DNA from: Sandaracinaceae bacterium
GTDB lineage: Bacteria; Myxococcota_A; Polyangia; Polyangiales; Sandaracinaceae
Assembly (NCBI GenBank): GCA_040218145.1
Contig: JAVJQK010000079.1
Location: 1 to 38,832 of the forward strand
Direction: 5' to 3'
DNA length: 38,832 nucleotides
Below, in pieces: positions 8,923 to 36,498 of the stretch (position 1 is its first letter; every line of letters begins with the position of its first letter). The position numbers and the translations under genes are program-made. The notes below the pieces were generated by a model. It worked only from the letters and a program-made list of their open reading frames with translations, made no database searches and was not told the origin of the DNA.

Positions 8923-8926
8923 GGAG

Positions 8927-8955: not shown

Positions 8956-8993
8956 TCAAGCCGCGCTCTGGCGCATACCACCCGACCCCCGCC

Positions 8994-9926
8994 ATGTCTG
9001 AATCAGAGTCCGAAGCAGAGCCCCGCGCCGGTCGCGTCGCGATCGTCGGCCGACCGAACGTCGGCAAGAGCACGCTCCTCAACGCGCTGCTCGGCCAGAA
9101 GCTCGCGATCACGACGCCGCGGCCGGGCACCACGCGCGCCTGCCTCCTGGGCGTGCACTGGTCCGACGACCCGCCGACCCAGATCGCCTTCGTCGACACG
9201 CCGGGCCTCGAGCGGCCGCGCTCGGTGCTGGGCCGGGTCCTCGTGGAGGAGGCCCAGGGGGCGCTCGAGGGGGCCGACGCCATCCTCGTCCTCGTGGACG
9301 CCACGCACCGCGGGCCGGGCGACGACCCGCTGCCCGAGGAGGACGTCGCCATCGTCGAGCAGGCCAAGGAGATCGGCCGGCCGATCGTGCTCGGCCTGAA
9401 CAAGGTCGACAAGGTCAAGGACAAGGGCCGCCTGCTCCCCAAGCTCGCCGCGTGGTCGGAGCGCTTCGACTTCGCCTCCATCGTGCCGATCTCGGCGCTG
9501 CGAGAGGACAACCTCGCGCCGCTGCTGAAGGAGCTCCGCGCGCTGCTGCCCGAGGGCCTGCTCTACGCGCCCGACATGCTGACCGACCGGCCGGAGCGCT
9601 TCTTCGCGGCCGAGCTGGTGCGCGAGTCGATCATCGTCAAGACGCGGCAGGAGATCCCGTACTCGGTCGCGGTGCAGGTCGACGAGTACAGCGAGGACGG
9701 GAACCTCGTGCGGATCGGCGCCACCATCTTCGTCGACCGGAAGACCCACAAGGGCATCCTGATCGGCAAGGGCGGTCAGATGCTCAAGGACATCGGCACC
9801 CGGGCGCGCCTCGCGATGGAGGACCACCTGCAGCGCAAGGTCTTCCTGCAGCTCTTCGTCCGCGTCGAGGAGGGCTGGACGCGAGACCCGCAGAAGGTCC
9901 GCACGCTCACCAAGGAAGCCGACTGA
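8994..9926 (+). CDS. era: GTPase Era (ribosome assembly)
   Basis: Era binds the 3' end of 16S rRNA and acts in 30S subunit maturation in the cytoplasm. The 310-residue protein has normal family length. The G domain carries GRPNVGKST (G1, about 18-26), PGTTR (G2), DTPG (G3), NKVD (G4) and SAL (G5). A C-terminal KH RNA-binding domain contains GKGGQMLKDIG. No Shine-Dalgarno sequence is apparent before the ATG (the preceding bases are C-rich), so a leaderless or weakly initiated transcript is possible. Its stop is one base before the der start, so the two GTPases are translationally linked. Confidence 0.97.
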   Translation: MSESESEAEPRAGRVAIVGRPNVGKSTLLNALLGQKLAITTPRPGTTRACLLGVHWSDDPPTQIAFVDTPGLERPRSVLGRVLVEEAQGALEGADAILVLVDATHRGPGDDPLPEEDVAIVEQAKEIGRPIVLGLNKVDKVKDKGRLLPKLAAWSERFDFASIVPISALREDNLAPLLKELRALLPEGLLYAPDMLTDRPERFFAAELVRESIIVKTRQEIPYSVAVQVDEYSEDGNLVRIGATIFVDRKTHKGILIGKGGQMLKDIGTRARLAMEDHLQRKVFLQLFVRVEEGWTRDPQKVRTLTKEAD

Positions 9927-9927
9927 C

Positions 9928-19199: not shown

Positions 19200-20021
19200 A
19201 TGACCGACGGCCCCAACACCTTGACCGAAGCCCTGCAGAGCCGCGAAGCGCTCTTGCAGGAGTGGCTCGACGCGCTCTCCGCGACCGCGATGCGCAGCCA
19301 GGTCTCCGACGCCGAGCTGCGCGAGGAGGCGGAGACGCTGCTGGACCAGATGGCCGCCGTCTCTCGGGGGGGCGAGGAGGAGTGGGAGGATCTCCTCGAG
19401 GCCATGGACGGGCTGGCGCGCGCCCGGGTCGAGCAGGGCTTCGACTCGACGGACACCACGACCTTCGTCCAGACGCTCCGCGCCCCGCTGCTGAGGCGGA
19501 TCCACGCCGCGGCGGGCGGCGACGACGCGCTCGAAGAGGTGCTCAAGGCGTCGCGCCTGCTCGATCACGTGCTGCGGCGCATGATGGACGCCTACGTCAA
19601 GGCGCGGGACGCGGTGATCGCACAGCAGCAAGAGGACCTGCTCGAGCTGTCCACTCCGGTCGTGAGCCTCTGGGACGGCGTGCTCGCGCTCCCCCTGGTG
19701 GGCACGCTCGACAGCCGGCGCGCGATGGTGGTGATGGAGTCGCTCCTCGAGCGCATCGCGGAGACGGGGGCGCAGATCACCATCCTCGACATCACGGGCG
19801 TGCCGACGGTGGACACCCTCGTCGCGCAGCACCTGATGAAGACCGTCACCGCGGCGCGGCTGATGGGCGCCGACTGCATCGTCAGCGGGATCCGACCGCA
19901 GATCGCGCAGACCCTCGTGCAGCTCGGGGTCAACCTCGGGGACATCGACACTCGCGCCACCCTCGCGGACGCCTTCGGGCACGCGCTCGAGCGGCTCGGG
20001 CGCGGGGTGGGGCCGTCGTGA
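19200..20021 (+). CDS. rsbR: Stressosome protein RsbR (STAS co-antagonist)
   Basis: Sensor and scaffold subunit of the stressosome, a large cytoplasmic complex built from RsbR and RsbS. The 273 residues split into a helical N-terminal sensory domain (about 1-140, dimeric and globin-like in the family) and a C-terminal STAS domain (about 150-265). The two RsbT phosphorylation positions of B. subtilis RsbRA (Thr171 and Thr205) fall at Ser172 (GTLDSRRA) and Thr206 ([12 protein letters not shown]), so the first site is Ser rather than Thr. The N-terminal domain contains no conserved haem ligand I can identify. First gene of a tightly overlapping five-gene operon behind a sigma-54-type promoter; its stop overlaps the rsbS GTG start (GTGA). 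Confidence 0.93.
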
Positions 20022-20422
20022 GCGACTACGGGCCCGAGACGATCCGCATCCCCATCATGAAGATGGGGCAGACCCTGATGGTCAGCGTGCAGGTCGAGCT
20101 GAGCGACGACGTCGTGATGCGCCTCAGCGAGGAGCTGACCGAGCGCATCGCGGGGGAGAGCGCCCGCGGGGTCCTGATCGAGATCTCGGCCCTCGACATC
20201 GTCGACTCGTTCGTCGGGCGCGTGCTCAGCGATCTGGCCAGCGCGGCGCGCCTGCTCGGCGCGCGCGTGGTGGTCGTCGGCATGCAGCCCGCGGTGGCGA
20301 TCACCCTGGTGGAGCTGGGTCTTTCGCTGCCGGGGGTGGAGACCGCCCTCAGCATCGAGCAGGGGCTCGAGAAGCTCGAGGTCGAGCGGCACTGGGGGAC
20401 GCATGGCGGCGCAGGAGCCTGA
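20018..20422 (+). CDS. rsbS: Stressosome protein RsbS (STAS antagonist)
   Basis: Minimal STAS-domain protein of 134 residues that co-assembles with RsbR and sequesters RsbT in unstressed cells. The GTG start overlaps the rsbR stop by four bases. The body aligns well with B. subtilis RsbS: IPIMKMG near the start, the phosphorylation motif IVDSF with Ser64 equivalent to Ser59, then [23 protein letters not shown] and a final EQGLEKLE. The phosphorylatable Ser is intact, so switching by RsbT is expected. The 3' end overlaps rsbT by 20 bases. Confidence 0.94.
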
Positions 20423-20807
20423 GCGTATCCCGATCGCGCAGGAGTCCGACGTGGTGCTCGTTCGGCGCGCGGTGCGCGAGCGCGCGCGCACGCTGAAGCT
20501 CTCGCTCGTGGAGCAGACCAAGCTCGTCACCGCCGCGAGCGAGCTGGCGCGGAACGCGCTCGAGCACGCGGGCGGCGGCCAGGCCACGGTGACCACCGTC
20601 GTCCACGGGACGCGCAGCGGCGTGGAGCTGATCTTCGAGGACGACGGCCCCGGCATCGCCGACGTGGAGACCGCGCTCCGCGACGGCTTCACGACCGGCC
20701 GCGGCCTGGGTCTGGGCCTCGGCGGCGCCAGGCGGCTCGTGCACGAGTTCGATCTCGAGGGGCGCGACGGAGGCGGGACCCGCATCCGTATCGTGCGATG
20801 GAGCTGA
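20403..20807 (+). CDS. rsbT: Serine/threonine kinase RsbT (switch kinase)
   Basis: GHKL-type protein kinase of 134 residues that phosphorylates RsbR and RsbS, leaves the stressosome and activates the downstream partner. Motifs are the N box [11 protein letters not shown] (Asn51), G1 DDGPGI and G2 [14 protein letters not shown], all intact, and the length matches B. subtilis RsbT. The ATG lies inside rsbS (20-base overlap) and the 3' end overlaps the next gene by ten bases, so synthesis should be tightly balanced. In B. subtilis RsbT activates the phosphatase RsbU; no RsbU with an RsbT-binding domain is visible here, so the target is probably encoded downstream. Confidence 0.94.
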
Positions 20808-21814
20808 GCACGTCGGGAGATCTCGGAGCTGGCTTCGTCCGGGTCCGCGACGGCTCGCACGTGGGGCGGGCGCGGCGGCTCGTGCGCGAGATGGTCGAGA
20901 AGGCGGAGCTGGGGACGGAGCTCGCCGAACGGGCCGCGCTGGTGGCCACGGAGCTGAGCACCAACCTCTCCACGCACGCCCGGGGCGGTGAGCTGCACGT
21001 GCGCGTGCGCGACGAGGGCGTGGATCTCGTCAGCGTCGACCTGGGGCCGGGAATGCGGGACCTGGAGCGGGCCTTCCGCGACGGCTACAGCACGGCGGGC
21101 ACGGGGGGCACGGGGCTCGGCGCGGTGCGGCGCCTGAGCGACGCGTGCGACTGCGAGAGCGCTGACGGCGGCACCGTCCTGGTCGCCTCGCTGGTGCGAC
21201 ACCGCACCGGGGAGACCCCCACCGTCACGCTCGCGCGCAGCGCCGGGCTCGTCTCGCCCCACCCGGGCGAGGTCAGCTCCGGCGACGGGTTCTTCGTGCG
21301 GCGTGAGCGAGGGCGAACCGTCGGCGCCGTGGTCGACGGTCTGGGCCACGGCGCGCTGGCGTCGAGTGAGCGCGAGCGGGCGCTGGAGGTCATGAGCGCG
21401 CTCGAAGAGAGCCTGTCGCCGAGCGATCACCTGCGAGCCATTCACGGCGAGACGACGCGCAGCGGAGGGCTGGCGGCTTCGGTCGTGGCGATCGAGCCCG
21501 AGCGCGAGCGCCTCGTGTTCGCGGGGGTCGGCAACGTCTCCGGGCGCGTCCTCTACCCCGACGGCGAGAGCGCGAGCCTCGTGACGCTGGGCGGCATCCT
21601 CGGGCGCGCGCCCTTCCACGTGAAGGAGATGGAGCGGCCGTGGCGGCCCGGCGCCGTGGTCGTGCTCCACTCCGACGGCATCACCACCCGCTGGCAGCCC
21701 AAGGACTACCGCTGGAGCGCGCGACGCGACCCGGCGGTGCTGGCCGGAGTGCTGATGCGGGACTACCGTCGCCCGCGAGACGACGCGAGCGTCCTGGTGC
21801 TCCGTGACGCATGA
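20798..21814 (+). CDS. HATPase-PP2C fusion phosphatase (RsbX-like position)
   Basis: Two-domain regulator of 338 residues. Residues about 20-135 form an RsbT/RsbW-type HATPase domain (N box ATELSTN with Asn56, G1 DLGPGM, G2 GTGGTGLGAVRRL). Residues about 145-338 form a PP2C/SpoIIE-type phosphatase domain with metal-binding Asp in GDGF (163), VVDGLGHG (180), HSDGI and RDDAS near the end. In other stressosomes the stand-alone phosphatase RsbX dephosphorylates RsbR and RsbS to reset the complex; this gene sits exactly where rsbX would, but carries an additional kinase-like domain. It could hold opposing kinase and phosphatase activities in one chain. It overlaps rsbT by ten bases and the next gene by eleven. 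Confidence 0.9.
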   Translation: MELSTSGDLGAGFVRVRDGSHVGRARRLVREMVEKAELGTELAERAALVATELSTNLSTHARGGELHVRVRDEGVDLVSVDLGPGMRDLERAFRDGYSTAGTGGTGLGAVRRLSDACDCESADGGTVLVASLVRHRTGETPTVTLARSAGLVSPHPGEVSSGDGFFVRRERGRTVGAVVDGLGHGALASSERERALEVMSALEESLSPSDHLRAIHGETTRSGGLAASVVAIEPERERLVFAGVGNVSGRVLYPDGESASLVTLGGILGRAPFHVKEMERPWRPGAVVVLHSDGITTRWQPKDYRWSARRDPAVLAGVLMRDYRRPRDDASVLVLRDA

Positions 21815-23351
21815 GACCCAAACGATCCCGCTCGGCTCCGGCCACACCTCGGAGGCGCTGCAGCGCGCGCGGGCCTGGCTGGAGGCGCGCGGCGTCGAGC
21901 CGGCCGAGGCGCTCGCGCTCCTGGTCACCGTGGAGCTGCTCGCCCCCGACGCGACCTCCCTCGAGCTCGACGCCGAGGGGGCGCGCGTGTGGACCGACGC
22001 GCCGAACGAGCCCGCGCTGGCGCGATACGCGCGGCTGCTCGAGGTGACGCGCGGCGAGGGCTGGGTCGCGCTGCGCCCGCGCTCGGAGCCGGTCGCGCCG
22101 CCCGCGCTCGACGCCCCGCGGCGCTCGATCGAGGCCTCGGTGCTCGACCGCCTGCTCGGCCGCGAGGCGGACATCGATCGGCTGCAGCGCGAGCTGGACG
22201 AGACGAACCGCGGCGTCGTCGCGCTCTACGCGGAGCTGGACGAGCACTCCCGGGATCTGGAGCGCGCGGATCGTCGCAAGGACGAGTTCCTGGCCATGCT
22301 GGCGCACGAGCTGCGGAACCCGCTCGCGGCCCTGCGGATCGCGGCGGAGGATCTCGAGGACGGCGGCGGGCCGCGCGCGGTCGCGGTGATCCAGCGCCAG
22401 ATGCAGCACCTCGGCCGCATGGTGGACGATCTGCTGGACGTCTCGCGCATCACGCGCGGCAAGATCGAGGTCAGCCTGCGCCGCATCGAGCTGAGTCAGG
22501 CGGTGCATCAGGCGGTCGAGCCGCGACGACGCATCGCCGCCGCCTCGCGCATGAACCTCGTCGTGGAGGAGGCGCCCGCGCCGCTCTGGATCGACGGCGA
22601 CCCGACGCGGGTCGAGCAGGTGATCGTCAACCTCGTCGACAACGCCATCAAGTACGGCGTGCCCGGCGGCACGGTCACGGTCTCGCTGGGGCTCCAGGAC
22701 AACCAGGCGGAGCTCGCCGTGAAGGATGACGGCCGCGGCATGACCGACGAGCAGCTCCGCGACGCGTTCGAGCTCTTCGTGCAGCACGCGCTCGACGGGC
22801 TGGACCGACCGCGCGGCGGGCTCGGGCTCGGCCTGACGCTGGTGCGCGAGATCGTGACGCTCCACGGCGGCAGCGTGTCGGCCGACAGCGACGGCCCCGG
22901 CGAGGGCTCGGTCTTCCGGGTGTGCTTCCCGGTGGTGGACGCCCCCGCGACGACGCGAGAGCCGGTGAGCGAGGCGAGCGAAGACAACGACGGCGCGATG
23001 CGCCTCCTGCTCGTGGAGGACAACGAAGATTTCCGGGAGCTGCTGGCCTCGCGCCTGCGCCGCCGCGGGCTCGAGGTGCTCGAAGCCGGCGACGGCGCCC
23101 AGGCGCTCGCGCACCTCCGGGCGGCCCCGCTGCCGGACGCCGTGGTGACCGACGTGGGGCTGCCGGGCATGGACGGCTACGCCCTCGCGCGCGCCATCCG
23201 GAGCGACCAGCGCCTCGAGCCGCTGAAGCTGATCGCGCTGACCGGCTACGGCGGCCAGGACGCGCTCGAGCGGACCCGGCTCGCGGGCTTCGACGACCAC
23301 CTGGTCAAGCCGGTCCCCGTCGAGGAGCTGCTCGCGGCCCTCCGCAGCTGA
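21804..23351 (+). CDS. Histidine kinase-receiver hybrid, probable stressosome output
   Basis: Cytoplasmic hybrid kinase of 515 residues with a GTG start inside the previous gene. A non-canonical N-terminal domain (about 1-95) is followed by a coiled stretch (about 118-158, ETNRGVVALYAELDEH), a HisKA domain (His168 in LAHELRNPLAAL), a HATPase domain (NLVDNAIKYG; DDGRGM; GGLGLGLTLV) and a receiver domain from about 399 (VEDN, phosphoacceptor about Asp450 in VTDVGLPGMDG, ALTGYG, LVKPV). There is no membrane segment. As the last gene of the operon it is the likely recipient of the RsbT signal, with phosphotransfer replacing the partner-switch to a sigma factor seen in Bacillus. The downstream transcription factor, if any, is not in this window. 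Confidence 0.92.
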   Translation: MTHETQTIPLGSGHTSEALQRARAWLEARGVEPAEALALLVTVELLAPDATSLELDAEGARVWTDAPNEPALARYARLLEVTRGEGWVALRPRSEPVAPPALDAPRRSIEASVLDRLLGREADIDRLQRELDETNRGVVALYAELDEHSRDLERADRRKDEFLAMLAHELRNPLAALRIAAEDLEDGGGPRAVAVIQRQMQHLGRMVDDLLDVSRITRGKIEVSLRRIELSQAVHQAVEPRRRIAAASRMNLVVEEAPAPLWIDGDPTRVEQVIVNLVDNAIKYGVPGGTVTVSLGLQDNQAELAVKDDGRGMTDEQLRDAFELFVQHALDGLDRPRGGLGLGLTLVREIVTLHGGSVSADSDGPGEGSVFRVCFPVVDAPATTREPVSEASEDNDGAMRLLLVEDNEDFRELLASRLRRRGLEVLEAGDGAQALAHLRAAPLPDAVVTDVGLPGMDGYALARAIRSDQRLEPLKLIALTGYGGQDALERTRLAGFDDHLVKPVPVEELLAALRS

Positions 23352-23374
23352 GGTCATCGAGCCCGCGGGCGAGG

Positions 23375-23394
23375 CGTCGCGGCCTGTCGCGACG
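23375..23394 (+). terminator. GC hairpin after the stressosome operon
   Basis: CGTCGCG (23375-23381) and CGCGACG (23388-23394) form a seven-base stem with a six-base loop, 23 bases after the stop of the hybrid kinase. No T-tract follows, so it is at best a pause or Rho-assisted end. Confidence 0.3.
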
Positions 23395-23440
23395 CGGCGA
23401 GCTGCCACGGCGTGGGCGGGCGCAGACGCCCGGTCCACCC

Positions 23441-23456
23441 TGGCACAGGCGTCGCT
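23441..23456 (+). promoter_or_regulatory. Possible sigma-54-type promoter before lipoprotein gene
   Basis: TGGCACAGGCGTCGCT keeps TGGCAC, the T at the third-last consensus block and the GC of the -12 element with correct spacing. The expected start near 23467 is only about three bases before the ATG at 23470, so the message would be nearly leaderless; this weakens the call. Confidence 0.35.
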
Positions 23457-23469
23457 GGAAGATCGGCGC

Positions 23470-24057
23470 ATGAAGACGACAGGAATGCTCATGCTCTCCC
23501 TGCTGGTCGCGGGCTGCGCGACCTCGCAGACGAACCCCGGCCCCTCGACGGCGCGCGCGCCCTCTCACGAGCCTGGCCATCACGACGCGCGCGAGGCGCG
23601 CCCCGACGACCTGCAGCTCGTCGTGTCCGCGCCATCGCCCACCGGGATCGTGCCGGCCGACCACACCGACGAGTTCCCCGTGCACCTCGATGTGACGAAC
23701 GAGAGCGACGACACCGTGGTGCTCGACGACGCGATCGCGCGCGTCGCGGTGGAGCTCGAGGGTGAGGTCCCGAGCGGCTGCGAGGCGCCCGAGGTCGGCG
23801 CCGTGACGCTCGCCGAGGACGCCGGCATCCGCCTCGAGGCGGGCGCGACGACCCGCTTCCAGGTCCCGCTCCCCTGCGCGCTGACGGACCTCGGCCGCTA
23901 CGACCTCCTGGTGAGCGTGCTCCTCGCGGGCGAAGGCGAGGACTTCGGCGCCATCGCGCCGACGGACCCTCACCTCGCCGCGTCGACCCGCGTCGACATC
24001 ACGGAGCACGATCCGCCCTTCGGCGCGCATCGCCCCGCGGTGGCCGAAGTGCCCTGA
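23470..24057 (+). CDS. Predicted lipoprotein with beta-sandwich-like domain
   Basis: Predicted 195-residue lipoprotein with a short signal peptide ending VAGC (Cys16). After a polar His/Pro/Asp-rich segment (about 20-45) the chain from about 48 to 180 has alternating hydrophobic strands (LQLVVSAPSPTGIVP, FPVHLDVTNESDDTVVL, TRFQVPLPCAL), as in immunoglobulin-like folds; two Cys (GCEAPE and PCAL) could form one disulfide. I do not recognise a specific family. It follows the stressosome operon by 118 bp and is convergent with the giant gene, with only seven bases between the stops. Confidence 0.72.
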   Translation: MKTTGMLMLSLLVAGCATSQTNPGPSTARAPSHEPGHHDAREARPDDLQLVVSAPSPTGIVPADHTDEFPVHLDVTNESDDTVVLDDAIARVAVELEGEVPSGCEAPEVGAVTLAEDAGIRLEAGATTRFQVPLPCALTDLGRYDLLVSVLLAGEGEDFGAIAPTDPHLAASTRVDITEHDPPFGAHRPAVAEVP

Positions 24058-24064
24058 GCGCGTC

Positions 24065-27000
24065 TCACGCGAGCAGATCGATCAGCAGCGCCATCTCGCC
24101 GCCCTGACCGAAGCGCGCCGCGTCTCGATGCAGGGTCCCGAGGACCCGCGCCGCGAGCAGCCTGACCAGCTCGTCCGACCGCGGGTCGTCCGCGGCGAGC
24201 GCGCGGGCGACCTCCTGGACCGCGCGGTGGCGCCCCGCCATCTGCACGACGTGTCCGAGCGCCTCGGCGAGCGGGCGCTTCTTGCGGCCGTCCACGAAGA
24301 CGGCGCCGACCGCGGCGACCTCCATCGCCGCGAAGCGCGCCTCGAGCGCGGCCTCGAGCGGCGTCGACGCGCGCTTGGGCGGCGCCGGGGTAGGACGGCC
24401 TTCTTCTCCCGCGGGCGCCGTCGACGGAACCACGACCGGCGCCGGGGGCGGCTCCGGAGGCGCGTCGCCGAGCACCTGCTCGCGCAACCAGAGCGACCAG
24501 GGCAGCGCGTGGTCCCCGAGGAACGCCGCGACGAGGCGCGCGGTCTCGCCGCCGTCGTCGACGAACAAGGGCCGCGGCGTGGCGGCGTCCTCCGCCGCGT
24601 CGACCTCTGCCGGCGTGCAGCGGATCACGCGCTGACCGGTTCCCAAGTGCTCCACCAGCGACGCGAGGGTCGTGGTGGGTGGGCGAAAGCACGCGAGCAT
24701 CACGGACGGGAACCCCTCCGCGTCCAGATCGACCCCGCGCGCCGCGCCGCCGAGCACGTGCCCGAGCATGCGCTCGTCTCCGCGCTCCGCGACGGCCCGG
24801 GCCGCCTTCGCGATCGACGCCGCGTAGAGCGCGGTCACGAGCGACCCGACGCGGTGGGCGTCGAGGATCCCGGCCGCCCAGAGCTGGCCGCAGAGCGGCA
24901 GGGATCGGCCGCGGCCGTCCTCCGCGAACAGGGTGTGCTCGCCGCGGCCGTCGCGCAGCGTGATCGTCGTCGCCGGCGCCGACCCCGGCTCGCTCTCCTC
25001 GAGCCAGATCACGCCCTCGACGGCAGGGAAGCCCTCGAGCCCGAGCGAGGGAAGGAGGCCCGCGTGGACACGAAGAGACAGCGAGACACCTTGCGGCTCC
25101 GCGATGAGCTGCGCCAGCGCCGCGTCCACGCGCTCGCGAAGGTGACCTCGGAGCAGCGCGAGCTGGACGCCGCTCTCGCTCGGACCGTCGTGGGTGCGGT
25201 TGACCTCGAGCTCGGGGTGATCGATGCGGGCGAGCCAGGGCCAGCCCGTCCCGTCCGCGTGGGTCCCCATCGGCAGCATCGCGCGAGAGAGGTGCAGCCC
25301 GCGCAGGTGCTCGAAGCCGGGGCGGAGCACCGCGACGAGGCCGTGCGCGGCGCCGAAGCCCTCCACGCGCTCGATGACCGCCGCGCCGAGCGCCTCCGCC
25401 TCGGTGAGCTCCAGCGACTCGAGCCGCGGCCGGGCCTGGTTCTCGCGTGCGACGGCGTCGAGCTGGAGCTCCTCGGTGCCGTCCACGACAGGCACGAAGC
25501 TCTCCAGTCGCGCCGCCTCGGCCGACGTGATCTGGAGCACGACGCGCCCCGGCTCGAGCGGCTCGGCGCGGATCGGGTAGGGGGTGAACCAGACCTCGCC
25601 GAAGCGCGCGGTTTGCTCCTTCAGCTCGTCCGGGGTCACCCATCGCTCGCTCGTGGTGAGGAAGAGCGGCACGTCGTTCAGCCGCTCGTAGTGCAGCCCG
25701 TCCCCGGCGAGGCAGCTGTCGCGCAGCGCCTCGCGCACCCACGGCGGCAGCTGATCGCGCGGGACCTCGTCCACCACGTGACGGATCACGTGACTGACGA
25801 TGAGCTTCAGGGCGTCCATGAGCTGGTTGCGCGCGGTCGTCTGGAGGGACGCCATGCCCGCCTCGTCGACGAGCGGAGAGGTCATCGCCACGACGACGCT
25901 GGGGATCACGTTGGCCTCGATGGACCGGGTGTGCTCGCCGCGATCGAAGAGCAACAGGCGGCTCGGAGCCTCCCGCACCAGGGCCACCTCGCCCACGCCG
26001 ATGACCTCGGCGCGAGGATCGGTGACATTCGCGAGCAACACCTCGAGCGGGACGCAGAAGCGCGGGTCGGGCGGCGCGATGACCGCAGGCCGGCGCTCGA
26101 TCCCACGCGCCACCCGGCGCTTCGACTGGAGCTTCGCGAGCGCCCCGCCCACGTCTCGTGTGCTCCCCTTTCCCCAGAGCGCGCCGAGCAGCTCGCGCAG
26201 CGCGCCGCGCTTCTCTTCCTGCGCGGGCAAGGCGATCACCGGGGCGTCGAGGGCGCTCCGCCGCTCCCCTTCGTCCGGCTCGAGCCAGTGGCCCTCCCAG
26301 GCCCCGACGCGGAGATCGCCGCTCCCCCCCGCCGCGTCCGCGAGCGACGTTCGCCCGCCTTGCACGGTGCGCCACGCGGGGACCTCTCCCAGGAGTGTCC
26401 GGAGCTTCTGATCCGCGGAGGCCTTCGACCCCTTCGCCACCCACGCGCGGAGGAGCGCGAAGGTGCGCGGCGCGTCCGCCAACGAGGTCGGCTCGGACTC
26501 GGCGATCGCCCTCAGCAGCACGCGCGCCCCGCGCCACGAGACGCGGCGCACCATCCTCTCGGCCGCGTCGGTCAGACCTCGCAGCTCCTCGTCCGCGCAG
26601 TCTTCGTCGAGATCGATCGCGAGCCAGACCGGCGGCCCGTCCGGGACCCGGAGCTCCACGAACGAGCGGCCCTCGATCTGCGCGTGGATGAGGGTGCCTC
26701 CATCCTCGATGGACGCGGGCGCGGCGACGGCGGAACGATACGTGCGACCCTTCACGGGCACGCGGGGTCGCGCCCACGTCACCGTCGGATCGCTCTGTCG
26801 CTGACGGCGGTGGAGCTCGAGCGCCCGCGCACGCCGCGCGCGACGACGGAGGCCCTCGAGCTGGTCGCGCCCGTCCGCGAACGCGCGCCCCGTCCAGCGC
26901 TCGAGCGCCTTCACCATCGACGACGAGGCGAGCACGGGGTGCCAGCCGTCGAGCTCGACCCCGGCCGCCTCGCCGAGCGGCACGAAGGGGATGGGGTCGG

Positions 27001-29668
27001 CGCGAAACGCCTCCATGATCTGGTCGACGCTGTGCCGCTCGGGCGCTCCGAGGCGCTCGAAGAGGGGGACGCCCGAGAGCGCGCGGAGGCGTGACGACGT
27101 GAGCACTCGCTCGAGCGAGCCCTCGGCGTGCTGCATCAGATCGAAGAGCGCGTGGCGGGCGCCGTGGGCGTCGAAGGGATCCTCTGGACCGACGGCGAGC
27201 GCGGGCGGCGGCTTGCCAGTGAGCGCGTCGACGAACGCGCGCGCGAGCTCTCCCTCCCAGCGCGCGAGCGGGTAGCCCTCCGCGCGCGGCGACGCGACGC
27301 TGCGCCAGCCCTCCCCCGGCACCACCAGGCCATCCTCCACCACGACCCGACACGGGGTGGTCGTCTCGTCGACGACCCTCGTCTCGAGCTCGTGCCCCCA
27401 GTGCCGGACGACCAGCTCGCGCCGCTCGCCCCCCCAGACCACCGCGGCCCGGAGGTGCGGACCCTCGATCTCGAGCCCCACCCCGTGCGGAGGCGTCTCT
27501 CTTCGCGCGAGCCCGGTCGGCTCCGGCTCGGTTCTCTCGCGGATGAGCACCGGTCGGTAGTCCACCATCGGGCCGAAGAGGGACAGCGCGTCGTCGCGCT
27601 CTTCTCGGTCGAGCACCAGGACGAGCCGGCCCGAGGGCGCGGGCCCGCCCGGCGCGGCGCCGAAGCACACGCCGAGTGGCCTCGGGGTGCGCAGCACGTC
27701 GCGCGCGGTGTGGAGCGAGCCGTCCACCGTCGGCCAGATCGCGGCGCGCAGCAGAGGGCTGTTCGAGCTCGCGAGCTGCGCGCGCAGCGCGTCCGGGTCT
27801 CGTCCATCCGCGAGGAGCTGCGCCGCCAGGTAGACGCCACGCCGGAGGACGCCCGCAACGAGATGCGCAGCCTCCGGCGCGTCGATCCACTCGACCCGGG
27901 CCTCGCTCCGATCGCCCTGCTTGCGCTTGCCCGAGACGCGGAGCGCGAGCCCCTCGCAGGCGACGACGGCCGCGGCGTCGAGGGCGCGACACATGGACAC
28001 GTAGCCGGGGTCACGGCGAACGCTGCGAAAGTCGACGTGGGGGACGAGGCCAGCGCGCGTGACGACGGCCTCGTAGAGGAGGCTCCGGTCCGGCTGCAGC
28101 AGCTCGATCTCGCGCCCGCCGAGGCGAACGCTCACCGCGCCCGCGCGCGCTCGCCGCGGATCGAGGAGCGCCAGCTCGCCCTCGAGGCCGGGCACGTCGA
28201 ACAGCTCCGTCGGCGCGATGCTCTTCAGAGAGCGGCCTGGCGCCTTCAGCGGCACCGCGAGGAGTTGCACGTCCGACGCCTGCAGGGTGTTGGGCCGCGG
28301 CGCCTCGTTCTGGAAGCGCGCGCGCGCCTTGCGATGCTTTCGAGCAAGCTTCGCGAGCTCCGACGCCCGCGCCGGCACCCAGTCGCCGAGCAGCGCGCGC
28401 GCGTGATCTCCCGGCGGCACCCACAGCACGTGGCCGAGCCAGGGCTCGAGCTCCGCCTCGTACGGGGCGTCGGCGAAGCTCACGCGCTCATCGCCCTCGC
28501 CCAGGGGAAAGCTCGCGGGGCTCCGAGGCCGGCCCAGCGCGTCGCGCAGGAGCGGCAGCGCGAGGAGCGGCGCGAGGGCCGAGGCCGCGTCCTCCTCCTG
28601 TTCGACGCCGCGCAGCGCGGCGCGCCAGAGTCGCCCGCTGGCCCGCGCCGCCAGGAGCTGCACAGCCGCGGCGCGGAGGCGCTCCCGCTGCGACTCGGTC
28701 CAGCTGCGCGAGGGCCCCTCCTCGAGCTCGCTGGCCAGACGCGCCACGACCGCGGGGAGCAGCTCTCGCCCGCGTTCGAGCGCGTCACGGACGGGTGGAT
28801 CGGTGAGCCGAACGGCGGAGCGCGACGCGTTCGTGGGCAGCCGGTTCGCGTCGAGATAGAGGCGGAGCGGCAACCCGGTGAGCTCGGGGTGGAAGCCGGT
28901 CAGCGGCCACGTGTAGCGCACGAGCAGCACGCCGAGCTCCGCCAGCTCGAGGCTCGCGGGCCCTCGCGCCGAGGCTGGGTCGAGCACGGCCAGGAACCCA
29001 TCGAGCCCCTCCCCGAGCGAGACGCGGAGCAGGTCGCGGTGCGAGCGCTCCCGCCCGAGCGTCGCGCCCCCCACCGCGATCGGCACCGCGAGGTCGTCGC
29101 AGCAGCGCCTCGCCACCGCGAGCTCCGCCGGCTCGCCGATCCCGATCAGGATCGGCACCGCGTTCCACTGCGGCAGCCGCTTGAGGTGCACCACGACGCC
29201 GGGTCCCAGCGCCTCGGGTGGGGGCACGGTCGGCTCGGGCGTCAGGCGGCGCAGCCCCTCCGCCACGCCCTCCTCCACCTTCAGCAGACCGGGCGTGAAC
29301 CGAACGCGCTGCGCGTCCTCGCCCATGCTGATCACGTCGAGCCAGCGCGGCTCCATGCCGAGCGCCGTGTTGACGCCCGTCGCGAGGAGGCGGAGGTGGC
29401 GATGGTCGGCCTTGGGCGCCGGATCCACCAGCTCGTCGAAGAGCGTGGCGACGCGCGCGGCCGGGATCGGAGGCCCTCGCCAGGCCACCCGCACGTCGTC
29501 GCCGTCCCCCGTCACCGCGATGCGCTCGGCGCCCGCGAGGACGGCCGCGCGGATCACCTCGAGGACCCACATCGTCGGATCGGGCAGCTGGTAGTCCCGC
29601 AGCTTGTCCACCGCGCGCGCCGCGTCCACGCGGAGGCGGCCCGCGGCCACGCGCGTCCCCGCGCTCAC
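24065..29668 (-). CDS. Very large protein of unknown function with degenerate Hsp90-like N-terminal domain
   Basis: Predicted cytoplasmic protein of 1867 residues without signal peptide or membrane segment. I use the GTG start at 29668 because it overlaps the preceding stop by four bases (GTGA) and has GGGGAGGGG just upstream; an ATG 13 codons earlier is less likely. Residues about 15-160 resemble the Hsp90/GHKL fold (DPTMWVLEVIRAAVLAGAERI, then VRVAWRGPPI), but the Mg-binding Asn of the ExxxN motif is Ala and the DxGxG motif is absent, so ATP hydrolysis is not expected. The remaining 1700 residues match no domain I can name; a Pro-rich linker (about 1715-1750) precedes a helical C-terminal part. 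Codon use is like the neighbours. It must work with the coupled ATPase upstream. Confidence 0.85.
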   Translation of the reverse strand: MSAGTRVAAGRLRVDAARAVDKLRDYQLPDPTMWVLEVIRAAVLAGAERIAVTGDGDDVRVAWRGPPIPAARVATLFDELVDPAPKADHRHLRLLATGVNTALGMEPRWLDVISMGEDAQRVRFTPGLLKVEEGVAEGLRRLTPEPTVPPPEALGPGVVVHLKRLPQWNAVPILIGIGEPAELAVARRCCDDLAVPIAVGGATLGRERSHRDLLRVSLGEGLDGFLAVLDPASARGPASLELAELGVLLVRYTWPLTGFHPELTGLPLRLYLDANRLPTNASRSAVRLTDPPVRDALERGRELLPAVVARLASELEEGPSRSWTESQRERLRAAAVQLLAARASGRLWRAALRGVEQEEDAASALAPLLALPLLRDALGRPRSPASFPLGEGDERVSFADAPYEAELEPWLGHVLWVPPGDHARALLGDWVPARASELAKLARKHRKARARFQNEAPRPNTLQASDVQLLAVPLKAPGRSLKSIAPTELFDVPGLEGELALLDPRRARAGAVSVRLGGREIELLQPDRSLLYEAVVTRAGLVPHVDFRSVRRDPGYVSMCRALDAAAVVACEGLALRVSGKRKQGDRSEARVEWIDAPEAAHLVAGVLRRGVYLAAQLLADGRDPDALRAQLASSNSPLLRAAIWPTVDGSLHTARDVLRTPRPLGVCFGAAPGGPAPSGRLVLVLDREERDDALSLFGPMVDYRPVLIRERTEPEPTGLARRETPPHGVGLEIEGPHLRAAVVWGGERRELVVRHWGHELETRVVDETTTPCRVVVEDGLVVPGEGWRSVASPRAEGYPLARWEGELARAFVDALTGKPPPALAVGPEDPFDAHGARHALFDLMQHAEGSLERVLTSSRLRALSGVPLFERLGAPERHSVDQIMEAFRADPIPFVPLGEAAGVELDGWHPVLASSSMVKALERWTGRAFADGRDQLEGLRRRARRARALELHRRQRQSDPTVTWARPRVPVKGRTYRSAVAAPASIEDGGTLIHAQIEGRSFVELRVPDGPPVWLAIDLDEDCADEELRGLTDAAERMVRRVSWRGARVLLRAIAESEPTSLADAPRTFALLRAWVAKGSKASADQKLRTLLGEVPAWRTVQGGRTSLADAAGGSGDLRVGAWEGHWLEPDEGERRSALDAPVIALPAQEEKRGALRELLGALWGKGSTRDVGGALAKLQSKRRVARGIERRPAVIAPPDPRFCVPLEVLLANVTDPRAEVIGVGEVALVREAPSRLLLFDRGEHTRSIEANVIPSVVVAMTSPLVDEAGMASLQTTARNQLMDALKLIVSHVIRHVVDEVPRDQLPPWVREALRDSCLAGDGLHYERLNDVPLFLTTSERWVTPDELKEQTARFGEVWFTPYPIRAEPLEPGRVVLQITSAEAARLESFVPVVDGTEELQLDAVARENQARPRLESLELTEAEALGAAVIERVEGFGAAHGLVAVLRPGFEHLRGLHLSRAMLPMGTHADGTGWPWLARIDHPELEVNRTHDGPSESGVQLALLRGHLRERVDAALAQLIAEPQGVSLSLRVHAGLLPSLGLEGFPAVEGVIWLEESEPGSAPATTITLRDGRGEHTLFAEDGRGRSLPLCGQLWAAGILDAHRVGSLVTALYAASIAKAARAVAERGDERMLGHVLGGAARGVDLDAEGFPSVMLACFRPPTTTLASLVEHLGTGQRVIRCTPAEVDAAEDAATPRPLFVDDGGETARLVAAFLGDHALPWSLWLREQVLGDAPPEPPPAPVVVPSTAPAGEEGRPTPAPPKRASTPLEAALEARFAAMEVAAVGAVFVDGRKKRPLAEALGHVVQMAGRHRAVQEVARALAADDPRSDELVRLLAARVLGTLHRDAARFGQGGEMALLIDLLA

Positions 29669-31293
29669 GGCCCCTCCCCTACGCGCTCGATGGCGGCCTC
29701 GAGCCACTCGTCGTCGCGGTCGTCGTCGAGGAGGCCCCGGTCGAGGAGGATGCCCCGCGCGAGGACCGCGGCCGCGAGCGACGGACGCGACGTCGCCGCC
29801 GCCCGCGCGGCGTACACGAGGGGATCCGTGACGTCGAGCCAGAGCGGGGGGCGACGGATGAGCGCGAAGATGTTCTCCGTCGCCTCTTCGCGCGTCAGCA
29901 CGCGCGGCGGGGCGTCGACGCCGGACACGAGCCGAGCGCCCGACAGCGCGCCTTCGAGCGTCACCAGGCGAATCTCCGAAGGGGCGCGGTGGACCTCGCC
30001 GAGCAGCTCGCGGACGCCGTCGAGGAGCGCCAGGTCACTCCCGCTCTCGATCACGGGCGAGGCGAGGGTGAGCGCCGCCTCCACCGACGGCGGCGCGGCC
30101 CCGAGGAGCTCGGCGATCGCGGCCAGGTAGCGCGCCGGGTCGGCGGCCACCGAGAGATCGAGGATCGCCACCTGCGCCGCGCTCGCGGCCTCGGAGAGCG
30201 GCGACGGTGCGGTGGCTGCGAAGACCGCGTCCCGCCGCCGCAGCCGCTGGACGCTCTCCGACGCGCCGCTCATCAGCGCCAGCTCGATCCGCTCGGGGTC
30301 GAGCGCGAGGCCCGCGGCGAGCGCCGTGGCGAGCACGCGATCGGGCGCGACGCTCGTCGGCAGCGCCTCGTGCACCGCACGGGTCAGGTCGCGATCGATC
30401 ACGCGCCGCGCGAGCTTCATGGCGTTGGCGTAGTGCGCGTCGCGCCTGACGCTGTCGCGGCTGAGCGTGTGCTCGAGGCGGCCGTCCTGGATCGACACGC
30501 GCACGTGGTCCCCCAGCACCGCCTCGGTCGTCTCGTGCAGGAGCAGCCCACGATTGAAGAACGCGAGCTGGGGCGACCCATGCTCGATGACGCCGGCCAC
30601 CACCGTCGTGCCCCCCTCCTCCACCCGCACCGAGATGCTGGCCTCGACCGAGAGCGGCGTGTCGACGCGCGCCTCGCGGAGCGGCTCCCCTTCTCCCACC
30701 AGGTGCGCCACGAAGTGGATGGGGAGCTCCGCGTGGCGACACCACTTCCGGAGCGCGCGGAGGCTGCCGTCGACGAACCGATCGACCTCGTCCCGCGCCA
30801 GAGGCACGTGCAGCGTCACGGTGGTCCCGCTCGACCCGCCCCCGGGCGCCTGGAACAGCTCGTAGCTCTGGTCGCTCCGCAGCTCGAGCGTCCACAGGTC
30901 CGTGTCCCCGGTGGTCGTGCGCACGACGACCTTCTCGGGCACCAGCGCGAGCACCGACACGAAGCCGATGCCGAACTTCCCGATCTTGCCCTCCTGCCCC
31001 TCCTTGCCCGAGCGGAAGAGCACGGTCAGCTGGTTCTCGAGCACCTGGCGGCTCATGCCGCAGCCGTCGTCGCGGACCGAGACGACCATCGTGCCGGCCC
31101 CGGGCTCGGCGCTCGCCTCCCAGCTCGCGCCGATCGAGACGCGCGTCGCGCCCGCGTCGATGGCGTTCTGGACGAGCTCCCGATAGAAGGCCAGCGGATC
31201 GGCGAACTGCTGGATCAGCGCGTCGACGAGGCCGTCGTCCCCCCCGGCGACGCTCGGCGCGGTAGCCCGTCCGCTGCGATAGGGCGACGCCAC
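29665..31293 (-). CDS. Hsp90-like (GHKL) ATPase
   Basis: Protein of 542 residues with an intact Hsp90-type ATP-binding domain in its first 200 residues: RELVQNAIDAGAT with catalytic Glu39 and Mg-binding Asn43, VRDDGCGM (Asp75), GKIGKFGIGF (about 102-111) and GTTVTLHVP (about 156). The next 150 residues continue the Hsp90-like pattern (a middle-domain-like segment near VEHTLSRD-type sequence), while the last 200 residues are unlike HtpG, which is about 620 residues long. So it is an Hsp90-family relative, not the housekeeping chaperone. GTG start. The stop overlaps the start of the giant gene by four bases, which implies a stoichiometric partnership. It lies 42 bp after the AKR fusion gene. 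A chaperone, remodeler or defence role is inference. Confidence 0.88.
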   Translation of the reverse strand: MASPYRSGRATAPSVAGGDDGLVDALIQQFADPLAFYRELVQNAIDAGATRVSIGASWEASAEPGAGTMVVSVRDDGCGMSRQVLENQLTVLFRSGKEGQEGKIGKFGIGFVSVLALVPEKVVVRTTTGDTDLWTLELRSDQSYELFQAPGGGSSGTTVTLHVPLARDEVDRFVDGSLRALRKWCRHAELPIHFVAHLVGEGEPLREARVDTPLSVEASISVRVEEGGTTVVAGVIEHGSPQLAFFNRGLLLHETTEAVLGDHVRVSIQDGRLEHTLSRDSVRRDAHYANAMKLARRVIDRDLTRAVHEALPTSVAPDRVLATALAAGLALDPERIELALMSGASESVQRLRRRDAVFAATAPSPLSEAASAAQVAILDLSVAADPARYLAAIAELLGAAPPSVEAALTLASPVIESGSDLALLDGVRELLGEVHRAPSEIRLVTLEGALSGARLVSGVDAPPRVLTREEATENIFALIRRPPLWLDVTDPLVYAARAAATSRPSLAAAVLARGILLDRGLLDDDRDDEWLEAAIERVGEGP

Positions 31294-31335: not shown

Positions 31336-33108
31336 TCAGCCGGGGTCGAAGTAGGCGTCTGCGTCCACGTAGGGCACGCCGAGGCGGCTCGCGATCCCTC
31401 GGTCCGCGGCCGAGGTGCCCACCCAGAGGCAGCGCGCCGGGTCGAGCGCGTGCTCGAGGATCAACGCCACCCCGAGGCCGGGCAGGGGCTTGCGGCACCA
31501 GCAGATCGGCGGCCCGGCGGCGTGGCGACAGAAGCGCGCGTCCAGGTCTCGCCCGAGCCCCGCCTCGAGGCGCGCGACGCGCCGCGCGACCGCCTCCGGG
31601 CTCGCCTTCGGGGCCCAGCCCGTGGCGCAGAGCGTCCGGGGCTCCTCTCGCAGCCGCGCCGCGCGCTCCGGCGCGAGCGTCACCGCCTCGCCCTCGAACG
31701 AGGCGAAGCTCTCGACGCTGACGATCACCGCCTCGCCGTCGCCACCCCACGGCGCGCGCTCGAACGCGCGCCGCTCCAGCGCCGAGAAGCCCTCGTCCTC
31801 GGTGGGTGGCTCGAACGCGGCGCGATAGCGGAGCTGCACGCGGGGGTCGAAGAGGTTCGGATCGTCCTTGCCGGCCCGCTTCATCTCGTCCGGCTCGAGG
31901 AGCCGGCCCGTCCGCTCGATCATGCGCACGCACGCGTTGACCTGCGCGTCCTCGAGCGCCGTGTCGACGAGCACGCAGCGCACGGGCAGATCGTGCTTCC
32001 AGGCGATCTCGAGGACCTGGTCGCGCAGCGCGCGGGTCGCGTAGGTGTTGTCGAGCACGACGCGGCGGGGGCCCGTGTTCGTGAGCGTGCTCAGGAGCGC
32101 GCCCAGCCGACCGTGCAGCGCCTTCAGCGTCCCCCCGGTCGCGTCGCGGTTGAGCCGCGCGTAGCCCGCCTCGACCAGCGCTCGGGCGTGCGTGCTCTTG
32201 CCGGCGCCCGGGATCCCCATCAGCAAGACGACTTCATCCTGTCCGCCGTCCCTCGGCGGAGTGGGCGGGCACCTGAGCCGCGCGCCGAGCGGAAACCGGG
32301 CGTCGAGCGCCTCGCGCGCCCCGTCGTCGAGGGAGAGCGGCGCCAGCGCGTCCCGCGCGGTCTCGGGCCGCGTGCAGCCGGGCAGCGGCGTGGCGCCGAG
32401 GTCGCGGAGCCACGCGAGCGTCATCGCCCACGGCGAGACGCCGCGCGCCTCGGCCAGCGCTCCGAGCGCGCGGTCCCGGCCGATCTTCGCCGCCCTCTTC
32501 GGCCCGCCGAGGGGCGAGTGCGCGAGCAGCGCGATGCCCTCGTCGAGGCAGTAGCGCGGCACGCCTCCGCGGAGGCCGCTCTCCTCGAAGGGCGACAGCC
32601 CGATCTGCACCGCGTCGACGTCCATGTGCGCGCGCGCCTCCCGGAGCTGCGCGACGCCCACGTTGCAGAGACCCAGCCGCGCCACGAGGCCATCGGCCTT
32701 CAGCTTCGCGAGCGCGCGGCACGTCGTCTTCCAGCTGACGCGCGGGTCGGGGGCGTGCAGCAGGTAGAGATCGATCGTCTCGACCCCGAGCGCCTCGAGC
32801 GAGCCTTCGCACGCCTGACGGATCGCCTTGGCCCTTCCGTCCGGCACCCACCGTCCACCCGGGCGTGTCAGGCCGCCCTTCGTCGCGACGCGCGGTCGCG
32901 GCCCGCTCCACGCGTCGAGGGCCCGCACCAGCCACCGCTCGTTGATCCCGAACACGCCGTCGTCGGGCCCGTAGACGTTGGCCGTGTCGAGCAAGGTCAC
33001 CCCCGCCTCGAGCGCCGCGCCGACCACCTCGTGCGCCGCCGCTTCGGTCTCGAAGCGCATGCAGCCGAGGGCGCGCTCGACGCGTCCGAGCGGGGCTCCG
33101 GGCGTCAT
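31336..33108 (-). CDS. Aldo-keto reductase / polynucleotide kinase-like / degenerate HAD fusion
   Basis: Three-domain protein of 590 residues. Residues 1-275 are an aldo-keto reductase with the full tetrad: Asp41 and Tyr46 (LLDTANVYG), Lys77 (VATKGG) and His118 (YLLHAPDP). Residues about 290-430 are a P-loop kinase of the polynucleotide kinase type: GIPGAGKST (298-306), LNRD and LDNTYAT, as in the kinase half of PNKP and T4 Pnk. Residues about 458-590 resemble a GmhB/PNKP-type HAD phosphatase: Zn-loop ligands Cys527, His529, Cys536, Cys538 and the CRKPLPG Lys are kept, but the nucleophile Asp is missing (VIVSVES) and the last acidic motif reads GTSAADRG, so phosphatase activity is doubtful. 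Starts three bases after the upstream stop. A nucleic acid repair link is plausible. Confidence 0.9.
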   Translation of the reverse strand: MTPGAPLGRVERALGCMRFETEAAAHEVVGAALEAGVTLLDTANVYGPDDGVFGINERWLVRALDAWSGPRPRVATKGGLTRPGGRWVPDGRAKAIRQACEGSLEALGVETIDLYLLHAPDPRVSWKTTCRALAKLKADGLVARLGLCNVGVAQLREARAHMDVDAVQIGLSPFEESGLRGGVPRYCLDEGIALLAHSPLGGPKRAAKIGRDRALGALAEARGVSPWAMTLAWLRDLGATPLPGCTRPETARDALAPLSLDDGAREALDARFPLGARLRCPPTPPRDGGQDEVVLLMGIPGAGKSTHARALVEAGYARLNRDATGGTLKALHGRLGALLSTLTNTGPRRVVLDNTYATRALRDQVLEIAWKHDLPVRCVLVDTALEDAQVNACVRMIERTGRLLEPDEMKRAGKDDPNLFDPRVQLRYRAAFEPPTEDEGFSALERRAFERAPWGGDGEAVIVSVESFASFEGEAVTLAPERAARLREEPRTLCATGWAPKASPEAVARRVARLEAGLGRDLDARFCRHAAGPPICWCRKPLPGLGVALILEHALDPARCLWVGTSAADRGIASRLGVPYVDADAYFDPG

Positions 33109-33111
33109 CGC

Positions 33112-33768
33112 TCAGATGGGGGTGCGGCCGCGGGCGATGGCGCGCTCGAGGGCGCGGCGGTCGAAGCCGGTGATGATCTCGCCGCGGAAGTCGATGACCG
33201 GGATCCCGTTCGTCTGCACGCCCGCCGCGCGCGCCGCCTCGAGCATCGCCTGCCGCGCGCCGGGGTCTCGCTCGATGTCTCGCTCCACGAACGGCACGTT
33301 GCGCTCGCGCAGGAACGCCTCGGTGGAGCGACAGGCCGAGCACCACGAGGCGCCGTAGACGATGACGTCGGCGTCTCCCTCGGCGGCCTCGCCCTCCGAC
33401 GGCTCCGGGGTGGTGGCCGCCGCGAGGTGCGCCTCGAGCTCGTCCCGCGGCATGGCGCGCACGGCGTAGCGGCCGTCCTCGCCCGCCTCGCGGAGATCCG
33501 CCACCCACACCTGTGACGGGTCGAGGCGCTCCTCCGGGGCGAGATCGAGGTCGTCGACCCGCACCAGCTCGCGCCGCGCCTCCGGGATCTCGTCGCGGCT
33601 CGCGGCGGTGTGCTGCCCCTCCTCGTCGAACCACACGAGCAGCAGCCCGCTCGCGTCACCGCGCACCTCGAAGGGGGCCTGCGTCGCCCCCTCGACGGCG
33701 GCTCCGCTCGCCTCGTTGCAGCCGAGCAGGAGGACGAAGGCCAGTGCCACGCGAGTCATGCCGCGCAT
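33112..33768 (-). CDS. Lipoprotein with C-terminal glutaredoxin-like domain
   Basis: Predicted 218-residue exported protein with a signal peptide ending LLGC (Cys17), probably a lipoprotein. Residues about 30-115 form a small domain with strands (GLLLVWFDEEGQHT) of unknown type. After an acidic linker, residues about 133-215 are glutaredoxin/thioredoxin-like: VIVYGASWCSACRSTEAFL with redox motif CSAC, VPFVERDIERDP, the cis-Pro in GIPVIDFRGEIITGFD. It would act in thiol-disulfide exchange outside the cytoplasm, which fits the number of Cys-rich exported proteins here. The start is 33768 or the ATG three codons later (33759); neither has a clear ribosome site. Three bases separate it from the AKR fusion gene. 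Confidence 0.84.
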   Translation of the reverse strand: MRGMTRVALAFVLLLGCNEASGAAVEGATQAPFEVRGDASGLLLVWFDEEGQHTAASRDEIPEARRELVRVDDLDLAPEERLDPSQVWVADLREAGEDGRYAVRAMPRDELEAHLAAATTPEPSEGEAAEGDADVIVYGASWCSACRSTEAFLRERNVPFVERDIERDPGARQAMLEAARAAGVQTNGIPVIDFRGEIITGFDRRALERAIARGRTPI

Positions 33769-35156: not shown

Positions 35157-36461
35157 TCAGCTGGCGGCCGCGGCGGCGAGGATGCCACCGGCGGCGTAGA
35201 TACGCACGAGCGCGTCCTCGTCACCGAGGTGGCGCCGCGCGCGATCGGGCTGCATCGCCTCGCGTGCGAGGGCGCGGGCCGCGGTCCGCCTCAGCACGCT
35301 GACGCCGTCTCCGCGCGCCACCTCGTCGAGCTTCGAGACGGCCGCCTCGTGCGCCTCGGCGGCGAGCAGCGCCGCGGCCTGCACGCCGGGCATCCCCTCG
35401 TCCGCGAGCAGCTCCTCGAGCGCACGCGACGCCGTGGCGCGATCGCGGCGCCAGAGCGCCCGCGCGAACGACAGCCGGACCTCGGGCTCGGTCTCCGTGG
35501 CGAGGGCCGCGCGCACCGCGTCGATCGGCGCGTCGGCCGTGCTGGGGAGCCCGGTCAGCGCGACCCCGGCCTGGGAGCGGAGCCCCGCGTCGCGCGCCTC
35601 GAGGGCCCCGCGGAGGTACGCGCGCGCCGCCGACGCCCCCGTCGGAGAGCCGTCGTCGTCGAGCTGCGCGAGCACCCGCGCCGCCTCGATCCCGGCCGGG
35701 CTGGGCGCCATCTCGAGCAACGCCCCGAGCGCGACGCGCGCCTGCGCCTCGTCGGCGCGGACGAGGGCGCCGACCGCGGCGAGGCGCACGCTCGACATCG
35801 GATCGCCCAGCCGCTCGCGCAGCGCGTCGACCCCCGCGGGTCCGGCGAGGGCCAGCGAGCCCACGGCCGCCGCGCGCACCGCCGGATCCGGATCGACCCG
35901 CGCCGCCTCGGCGAGCGCGCGGAGCACGTCCGCGTCATCGCGGGGAGACAACGCCCTCGCCGCCGCGCGCCGCACCTCGGCGCTGGGCGCCCGGAGGTGC
36001 TCGAGCAGGAGATCGCGATCGAGCGCCGGATCCATCCCCAGGATCGCGGCCGCGAGCACCGCCGGGTCCTCGTGGTCGGCGAGCGCGCGGAGCGACAGGC
36101 GCGCGCTCTCACTCCCACGCCGGGCCAGCACCTCGAGCGCGGCGAGCCGCGAAGGCCCCACGCCCTCGGCCTCGGCGAGCCGGATCAACCCCGGCTCCCC
36201 CGCGGTCCCGGCCAGCGAGAGCTGCAAGATCGCCGCGCGTCGTCGCTCGCCGTCGTCGCTCCGCGCCTCGCGCTCCAGGAGCAAGCCGGCGACCCGTCCG
36301 AGCACGTCGGCGTCCGCGCCTTCGCTCCGGCGGTAGTCCTCGTAGGCGGCGATCGCGCCGTCCAGATCGTCCGCCTCCACCGCGGTGGCCACCCTCCCCC
36401 GTGGCCCGCCTCCGCAGGCGGTGAACAGGAGGATCGCCATGGCCGTTCGCGCGCACTTCAT
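35157..36461 (-). CDS. HEAT-repeat lipoprotein
   Basis: Predicted 434-residue lipoprotein. The ATG at 36461 gives a signal peptide ending FTAC (Cys16); an ATG at 36440 would shorten it too much. A TPR-like helix pair (about 25-50) is followed from about 65 to the end by at least eight HEAT/PBS-lyase-type repeats of about 30 residues (DPAVLAAAILGMDPALDRDLLLEHL; AEVRRAAARALS; PAVRAAAVGSLALAG; SSVRLAAVGALVRA). Such solenoids are protein-interaction platforms. It starts the long minus-strand gene run and is divergent from the DUF4062-GAF gene with 37 bp between starts. Function unknown. Confidence 0.84.
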   Translation of the reverse strand: MKCARTAMAILLFTACGGGPRGRVATAVEADDLDGAIAAYEDYRRSEGADADVLGRVAGLLLEREARSDDGERRRAAILQLSLAGTAGEPGLIRLAEAEGVGPSRLAALEVLARRGSESARLSLRALADHEDPAVLAAAILGMDPALDRDLLLEHLRAPSAEVRRAAARALSPRDDADVLRALAEAARVDPDPAVRAAAVGSLALAGPAGVDALRERLGDPMSSVRLAAVGALVRADEAQARVALGALLEMAPSPAGIEAARVLAQLDDDGSPTGASAARAYLRGALEARDAGLRSQAGVALTGLPSTADAPIDAVRAALATETEPEVRLSFARALWRRDRATASRALEELLADEGMPGVQAAALLAAEAHEAAVSKLDEVARGDGVSVLRRTAARALAREAMQPDRARRHLGDEDALVRIYAAGGILAAAAAS

Positions 36462-36498
36462 GCGCGGCGAGCTTCGCACGTGTGGTAACGCTTTGCCC

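Follow-up and report, generated by a model that had tools for sequence, protein, structure and literature searches.

An Hsp90-family ATPase and a degenerate Hsp90 giant as probable subunits of one machine in Myxococcota

Two overlapping genes on a 38.8-kb contig of a Sandaracinaceae bacterium (phylum Myxococcota; genome size 11 Mb), one for a GHKL ATPase and the other for a giant protein, probably encode an Hsp90-type machine for chaperoning or remodelling that is built from two unlike subunits. We analysed the whole contig (the window) and place the probability of this reading, which draws on profile comparisons and structural models, at roughly 0.6. By these comparisons the ATPase, the small subunit, belongs to the Hsp90 family and is ATP-competent, with an N-domain, a middle domain that holds the catalytic arginine, and a C-terminal tail, and the giant is a second, degenerate Hsp90, a duplicated sister of the ATPase that has lost its ATP site. 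A locus with 99% identity is present in a Sandaracinaceae metagenome-assembled genome. The two genes and their junction, all on the minus strand, are:

24065..29668 (−), large subunit, the pseudo-Hsp90 giant (1,867 residues, GTG start)
29665..31293 (−), small subunit, the Hsp90-family GHKL ATPase (542 residues, GTG start)
29665..29668 (−), GTGA overlap of the giant's GTG start with the TGA stop of the ATPase, read in the sequence and kept in orthologues
29671..29680 (−), Shine-Dalgarno-like AGGGGAGGGG ahead of the giant's GTG and within the 3′ end of the ATPase gene, read in the sequence

Both reading frames show the codon-position GC pattern of real coding genes (0.76/0.50/0.94 for the ATPase and 0.80/0.52/0.92 for the giant). 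The four-base overlap (29668–29665), correctly described in the original prediction, is present as GTGA, ATGA or TTGA in the orthologous loci L005, L007, L008 and L009, and the start codon lies at −4 in 27 of 35 further ATPase–partner pairs; the spacing is thus not a matter of chance, and we regard the two genes as translationally coupled. The locus is single-copy in the window's genome, in which two weak matches were rejected as paralogues and look like histidine kinases by sequence.

The ATP-binding motifs of the small subunit, which had been called intact, can be read directly (RELVQNAIDAGA, VRDDGCGM, IGKFGIGF and SGTTVTL). The N-domain sites E39, N43, D46, D75, G77, G79, M80, G105, G108, G110, F111 and T157 are conserved at 100% across 80–82 family ATPases and, G77 excepted, have the Hsp90 counterparts E33, N37, D40, D79, G83, M84, G118, G121, G123, F124 and T171. 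In Pfam the protein matches HATPase_c_3 (E = 1.3e-11). A profile of 82 sequences, comprising the window's ATPase and its relatives, aligned end to end with HtpG (hhalign, 99.7%; residues 4–538 to 9–636). The region after the GHKL domain, from the middle domain to the C terminus, matched HtpG at 94.3% and MutL at 0.7%, and we therefore group the ATPase with Hsp90 rather than with MutL. The position of R279, aligned to the arginine of HtpG NVSRE, is Arg in 99% of 81 ATPases. Of the region expected to hold the C-terminal dimerisation domain, the last ~65 residues alone match the HtpG tail (83.7%). The ATPase differs from HtpG in scoring under the cut-offs of both HtpG (NF003555, 44.2 bits, cut-off 371) and PF00183 (HSP90), which was not reported in the Pfam scan, and in having a shorter ATP lid (25 residues in 36 measurable family members versus 35–39 in HtpG). 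The SACS family (PF25794) scored 29.2 bits, under its cut-off of 32.8. The same genome has a separate gene for a canonical HtpG at another location, so the ATPase of the pair is not the housekeeping Hsp90. Two features were located on it:

30694..31260 (−), ATPase N-domain, about residues 12–200, with conserved ATP-site residues and the 25-residue lid
30457..30459 (−), R279 in TLSRD, corresponding to the catalytic arginine in the middle domain of Hsp90 (R380 in yeast), from conservation and the HtpG alignment

Sequence searches with the giant in Pfam, NCBIfam, PADLOC and the PDB returned no recognised family; a hit to Polyketide_cyc2 (E = 0.086) was dismissed as meaningless. The original prediction had found no nameable domain beyond the N terminus, which proved wrong, as Hsp90-like modules extend across most of the length:

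29012..29644 (−), pseudo-GHKL N-domain, residues 9–219, aligned to the ATPase N-domain (hhalign, 95.8%)
28352..29083 (−), first middle-domain-like module, about 196–439, with the LPTNASRS motif, aligned to ATPase 191–408 (hhalign, 94.5%)
27491..28216 (−), middle-like repeat 2, about 485–726, from self-comparison with a period of ~237 residues, boundaries approximate
26792..27490 (−), middle-like repeat 3, about 727–959, ATPase 209–408 aligned to giant 719–937 (76%)
26087..26791 (−), middle-like repeat 4, about 960–1194, from self-comparison; strand-strand-helix, AlphaFold pLDDT (predicted local distance difference test) about 80
25376..26086 (−), middle-like repeat 5, about 1195–1431, ATPase 243–436 aligned to giant 1239–1440 (60%)
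24659..25375 (−), middle-like repeat 6, about 1432–1670, giant 485–580 aligned to 1432–1527 (97%)
24068..24658 (−), C-terminal region, about 1671–1867, aligned by hhalign to the ATPase C-tail

Giant residues 8–432 aligned with ATPase residues 11–398 at 98.8% (hhalign, E = 5e-17). When the N-domain profile of the ATPase was compared with the giant, regions outside residues 9–219 reached 1.7% at most. In the other direction, a profile of 73 partner N-domains, free of ATPase sequences, retrieved 35 ATPases at E ≤ 1e-5. The ATP site has decayed: Ala stands in place of the Mg-binding Asn in 15 of 16 giant orthologues and in 88% of 80 partner domains, another residue occupies the position of the adenine Asp, and neither the GxG nor the glycine loop survives (81 partner N-domains, 16 orthologues). 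The catalytic Glu (E37) and the arginine R283, which lies in LPTNASRS (compare DLSLNVSRE of HtpG), are invariant in all 16 orthologues. Since these two residues flanking the dead site are kept, docking of the N-domain onto the middle domain may still work mechanically without nucleotide.

Structural models lead to the same family. A Foldseek search of the PDB with the model of residues 1–460 gave Hsp90 in all of the best 33 rows, with HtpG first (E = 3.7e-8), and VIA-align superposed the N-domain on that of Grp94 over 118 residues (Z 10.3, root-mean-square deviation 3.0). For the model of residues 1–1062, Hsp90 and GyrB came out on top, and isolated middle domains of HtpG (2gq0) and Hsp90 matched with probability 1.0. 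Full-length HtpG, TRAP1 and Hsp90 were among the top PDB matches brought up by the giant models.

Beyond the N-domain, segments of the giant spaced ~237 residues apart, or multiples of this distance, aligned with each other at up to 98% in an hhalign self-comparison, whereas 80 column-shuffled control profiles gave ≤0.4%. Together with the matches to the ATPase middle domain, which fall from the first module to the later ones, these alignments lead us to propose that the giant carries about six tandem middle-domain-like modules, which span residues ~196 to ~1670 and have approximate boundaries. The last ~90 residues aligned weakly with the C-tail of the ATPase (20%; raw score 21 versus a shuffled maximum of 10), which is suggestive of a resemblance to the Hsp90 C-terminal tail.

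Of 96 genomes of the class, 37 have members of the family by the ATPase profile; across the phylum Myxococcota the count is 51 of 237, and a single genome has up to 7 copies. A first collection scan gave 80 loci, most of which (L010–L083) match ATPase residues 33–83 or little more; the 37 that were classified are MutL-like, and the whole group was excluded. Pairing was assessed in 40 regions (L184–L223; L185 and L007 are one record) that were chosen on an ATPase match only. A downstream partner was recognised by profile in 35 of these and by its aligned start in L222; one lies at a contig edge and three have none. Of the 39 loci that could be evaluated, 36 therefore carry a partner gene directly downstream. 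Partner lengths run from about 500 to 2,000 residues.

The distances among ATPases and among partners are strongly correlated across 67 pairs (Mantel r = 0.878, reached by 0 of 2,000 permutations). Paralogues within single genomes show the same behaviour (r = 0.93 in 19 comparisons, not all independent), so that species history cannot account for the co-variation. In one genome (G038) the ATPase and a pseudo-Hsp90 giant are naturally fused into a single frame of 1,908 residues (L181, 972–6695 (−)). Because of this fusion, the co-variation and the adjacency, the dedicated two-component machine that had been proposed from the window's sequence is well supported by the comparative data. The giants that we saw mostly adjoin an ATPase, and none of the profile libraries places the pair in a known system.

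Some members of the family depart from the arrangement in the window. At L162 (2616–10246 (+)), two ATPase–partner pairs with short partners of about 620 and 706 residues stand in tandem, which suggests local duplication of whole pairs. A sub-branch of ATPases of about 900–1,070 residues (L173, L182 and also L214–L218) has partners of about 490–550 residues, mostly with a four-base overlap; in L173 and L182 hydrophobic stretches separate a GHKL-S5 part from a transglutaminase core further along the chain (Transglut_core in L173 by Pfam, E = 1.8e-10).

The pair shares features with several known systems. As in HtpG and other members of Hsp90A, the ATPase has a GHKL N-domain, a middle domain with the catalytic Arg and a C-tail, and models of the giant retrieve Hsp90 N- and middle domains; the difference is that the pair consists of two unlike subunits, one of them a giant with a dead ATP site and repeated middle domains. 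The proposed likeness to sacsin stands in part. Giant size, Hsp90 N-like and middle-like modules with the catalytic Arg, repeats and a short lid are common to both; the lid-equivalent stretch of sacsin, Phe164–Gly188, has 24 residues (PMC9880540). Sacsin, however, carries its N-plus-middle unit three times per chain, together with DnaJ and HEPN, whereas the pair is encoded by separate genes and its giant has a single dead N-domain and repeats the middle module only; neither window protein nor the three other giants scanned had a Pfam match to DnaJ or HEPN. Finally, PRK14083 (NF010683) of Streptomyces is a divergent short Hsp90 beside a large partner gene. On a Streptomyces chartreusis plasmid (L243, about 5650–10889 (+)), a divergent HSP90 family protein is directly followed by a TPR-like protein of ~1,000 residues that, unlike the giant, has no match to the pseudo-GHKL domain.

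Upstream of the pair and co-directional with it is one gene that the pair keeps in Sandaracinaceae:

33112..33768 (−), glutaredoxin-domain gene

At L005 and L006 (Sandaracinaceae and close relatives) this gene is directly upstream of the pair, and close by are a small unknown gene and one for a universal stress protein. Among the 58 same-strand neighbours of the pair we found no recurring third gene. In the window, a fusion of an aldo/keto reductase with an AAA_33 P-loop kinase domain (31336–33108 (−)) lies upstream of the ATPase gene at a distance of 42 bases; elsewhere it adjoins the pair only in L004, a locus of the same species. A stressosome-type cluster (19200–24057 (+)) is convergent with the giant and ends 8 bases from it; its genes encode an RsbR-like protein (RsbRD_N and STAS), an RsbT-like kinase, a HATPase–SpoIIE fusion, a hybrid histidine kinase and a small lipoprotein-like protein. 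A protein with DUF4062 (TIR-like) and a weak GAF match is encoded at 36385–37683 (+), and also near the pair in L005.

Other explanations have to be weighed against a two-subunit Hsp90-type machine. The pair could be a device for biological conflict (anti-phage, kin or predation), with the ATPase as its conformational switch and the giant, which changes fast, as a sensor or effector scaffold. MzaB is an example of a GHKL ATPase from a defence system, and the patchy presence, numerous paralogues in some genomes, divergent giants, multicellular phylum and transglutaminase module of one ATPase sub-branch are all in keeping with such a role. Yet PADLOC yields weak GHKL matches to the ATPase and nothing further on either protein: the likeness to MzaB and TmtA is confined to the GHKL domain (E = 1e-7 to 2e-4), no Mza or Tmt partner genes were seen, and the 58 neighbours include generic kinases but no defence set. 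The giant has no match in plasmid and phage collections and viral contigs gave a single partial GHKL match to the ATPase, on which grounds we also rejected an origin from mobile elements. With a single-copy locus in the window's genome and stable stress-gene neighbours in Sandaracinaceae, a conflict device is unlikely, and the suggestion of an anti-phage device in the original prediction found no positive support.

We give little credence to a nucleoprotein or scaffold switch of the MORC or MutL kind, in which an ATPase dimer would clamp DNA or another polymer with the giant as its platform. The GHKL-plus-transducer fold is shared, and the lists of structural matches include MORC and MutL chains, but the second half of the ATPase sides with HtpG over MutL, Pfam revealed no DNA-binding domain and no nucleic-acid genes recur among the neighbours. 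It is similarly improbable that two Hsp90-like proteins act independently and merely share an operon. Unpaired ATPases (L147, L155, L174, L201, L210 and L213) and orphan partners do occur; the prevalence of pairing, the four-base overlap, the fusion and the matched divergence of paralogues speak against independence.

Several observations weigh against the two-subunit Hsp90-type machine itself. About 8% of the ATPases are unpaired, and six short orphans of 440–908 residues (L175–L180) have a pseudo-GHKL domain without an adjoining ATPase (an AMP-ligase follows L177 and a leucine-rich-repeat protein follows L180). Compared directly with HtpG, the giant's profile gives a weak match (19%), the link running through the ATPase and through structure, and the Hsp90 C-terminal dimerisation domain is just partly visible. 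The AlphaFold models of the giant have a mean pLDDT of 50.6 (residues 1–1062) and 59.8 (1–460), with residues 165–297 mostly below 50, because four giant sequences alone were usable as input; we have therefore limited our claims to folds backed by both profile and structure. Neighbouring genes are not conserved beyond Sandaracinaceae. The anatomy of the pair is firm; its client and physiological role are inferred.

A role in chaperoning or remodelling nevertheless seems the better guess. In Hsp90, ATP closes the N-domains, the middle domain contributes the arginine and is where clients bind, and dimerisation takes place through the C-domain. The ATPase and the giant would form an obligate hetero-complex through contacts of this style; ATP-driven closure of the small subunit would move the pseudo-Hsp90 giant, whose row of middle-domain modules might clamp one large client or several sites simultaneously. 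Its context in the cell is probably one of stress or proteostasis and not of phage defence, a view to which the glutaredoxin and universal-stress-protein neighbours at L005 and L006 contribute. That the system is phylum-wide, with a catalytic Hsp90 and an obligate pseudo-Hsp90 bearing a client-binding middle array, and that it arose independently as a split counterpart of sacsin, we hold to be slightly better than an even bet.

We found no description of the ATPase–giant pair in the open PubMed Central (PMC) literature, subscription literature being outside the search. Bacterial Hsp90 has been described as having no identified obligate co-chaperones (PMC3708813). If our reading is true, a bacterial Hsp90-type ATPase would have a genetically fixed partner, and this partner would be a dead Hsp90, standing to the ATPase as pseudokinases do to kinases. 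It would show how a multi-site clamp can arise by multiplication of Hsp90 middle domains. The size of sacsin is said to have hampered its biochemical analysis (PMC3629688); as a model for giant Hsp90 proteins of this sort, the pair would be smaller and separable.

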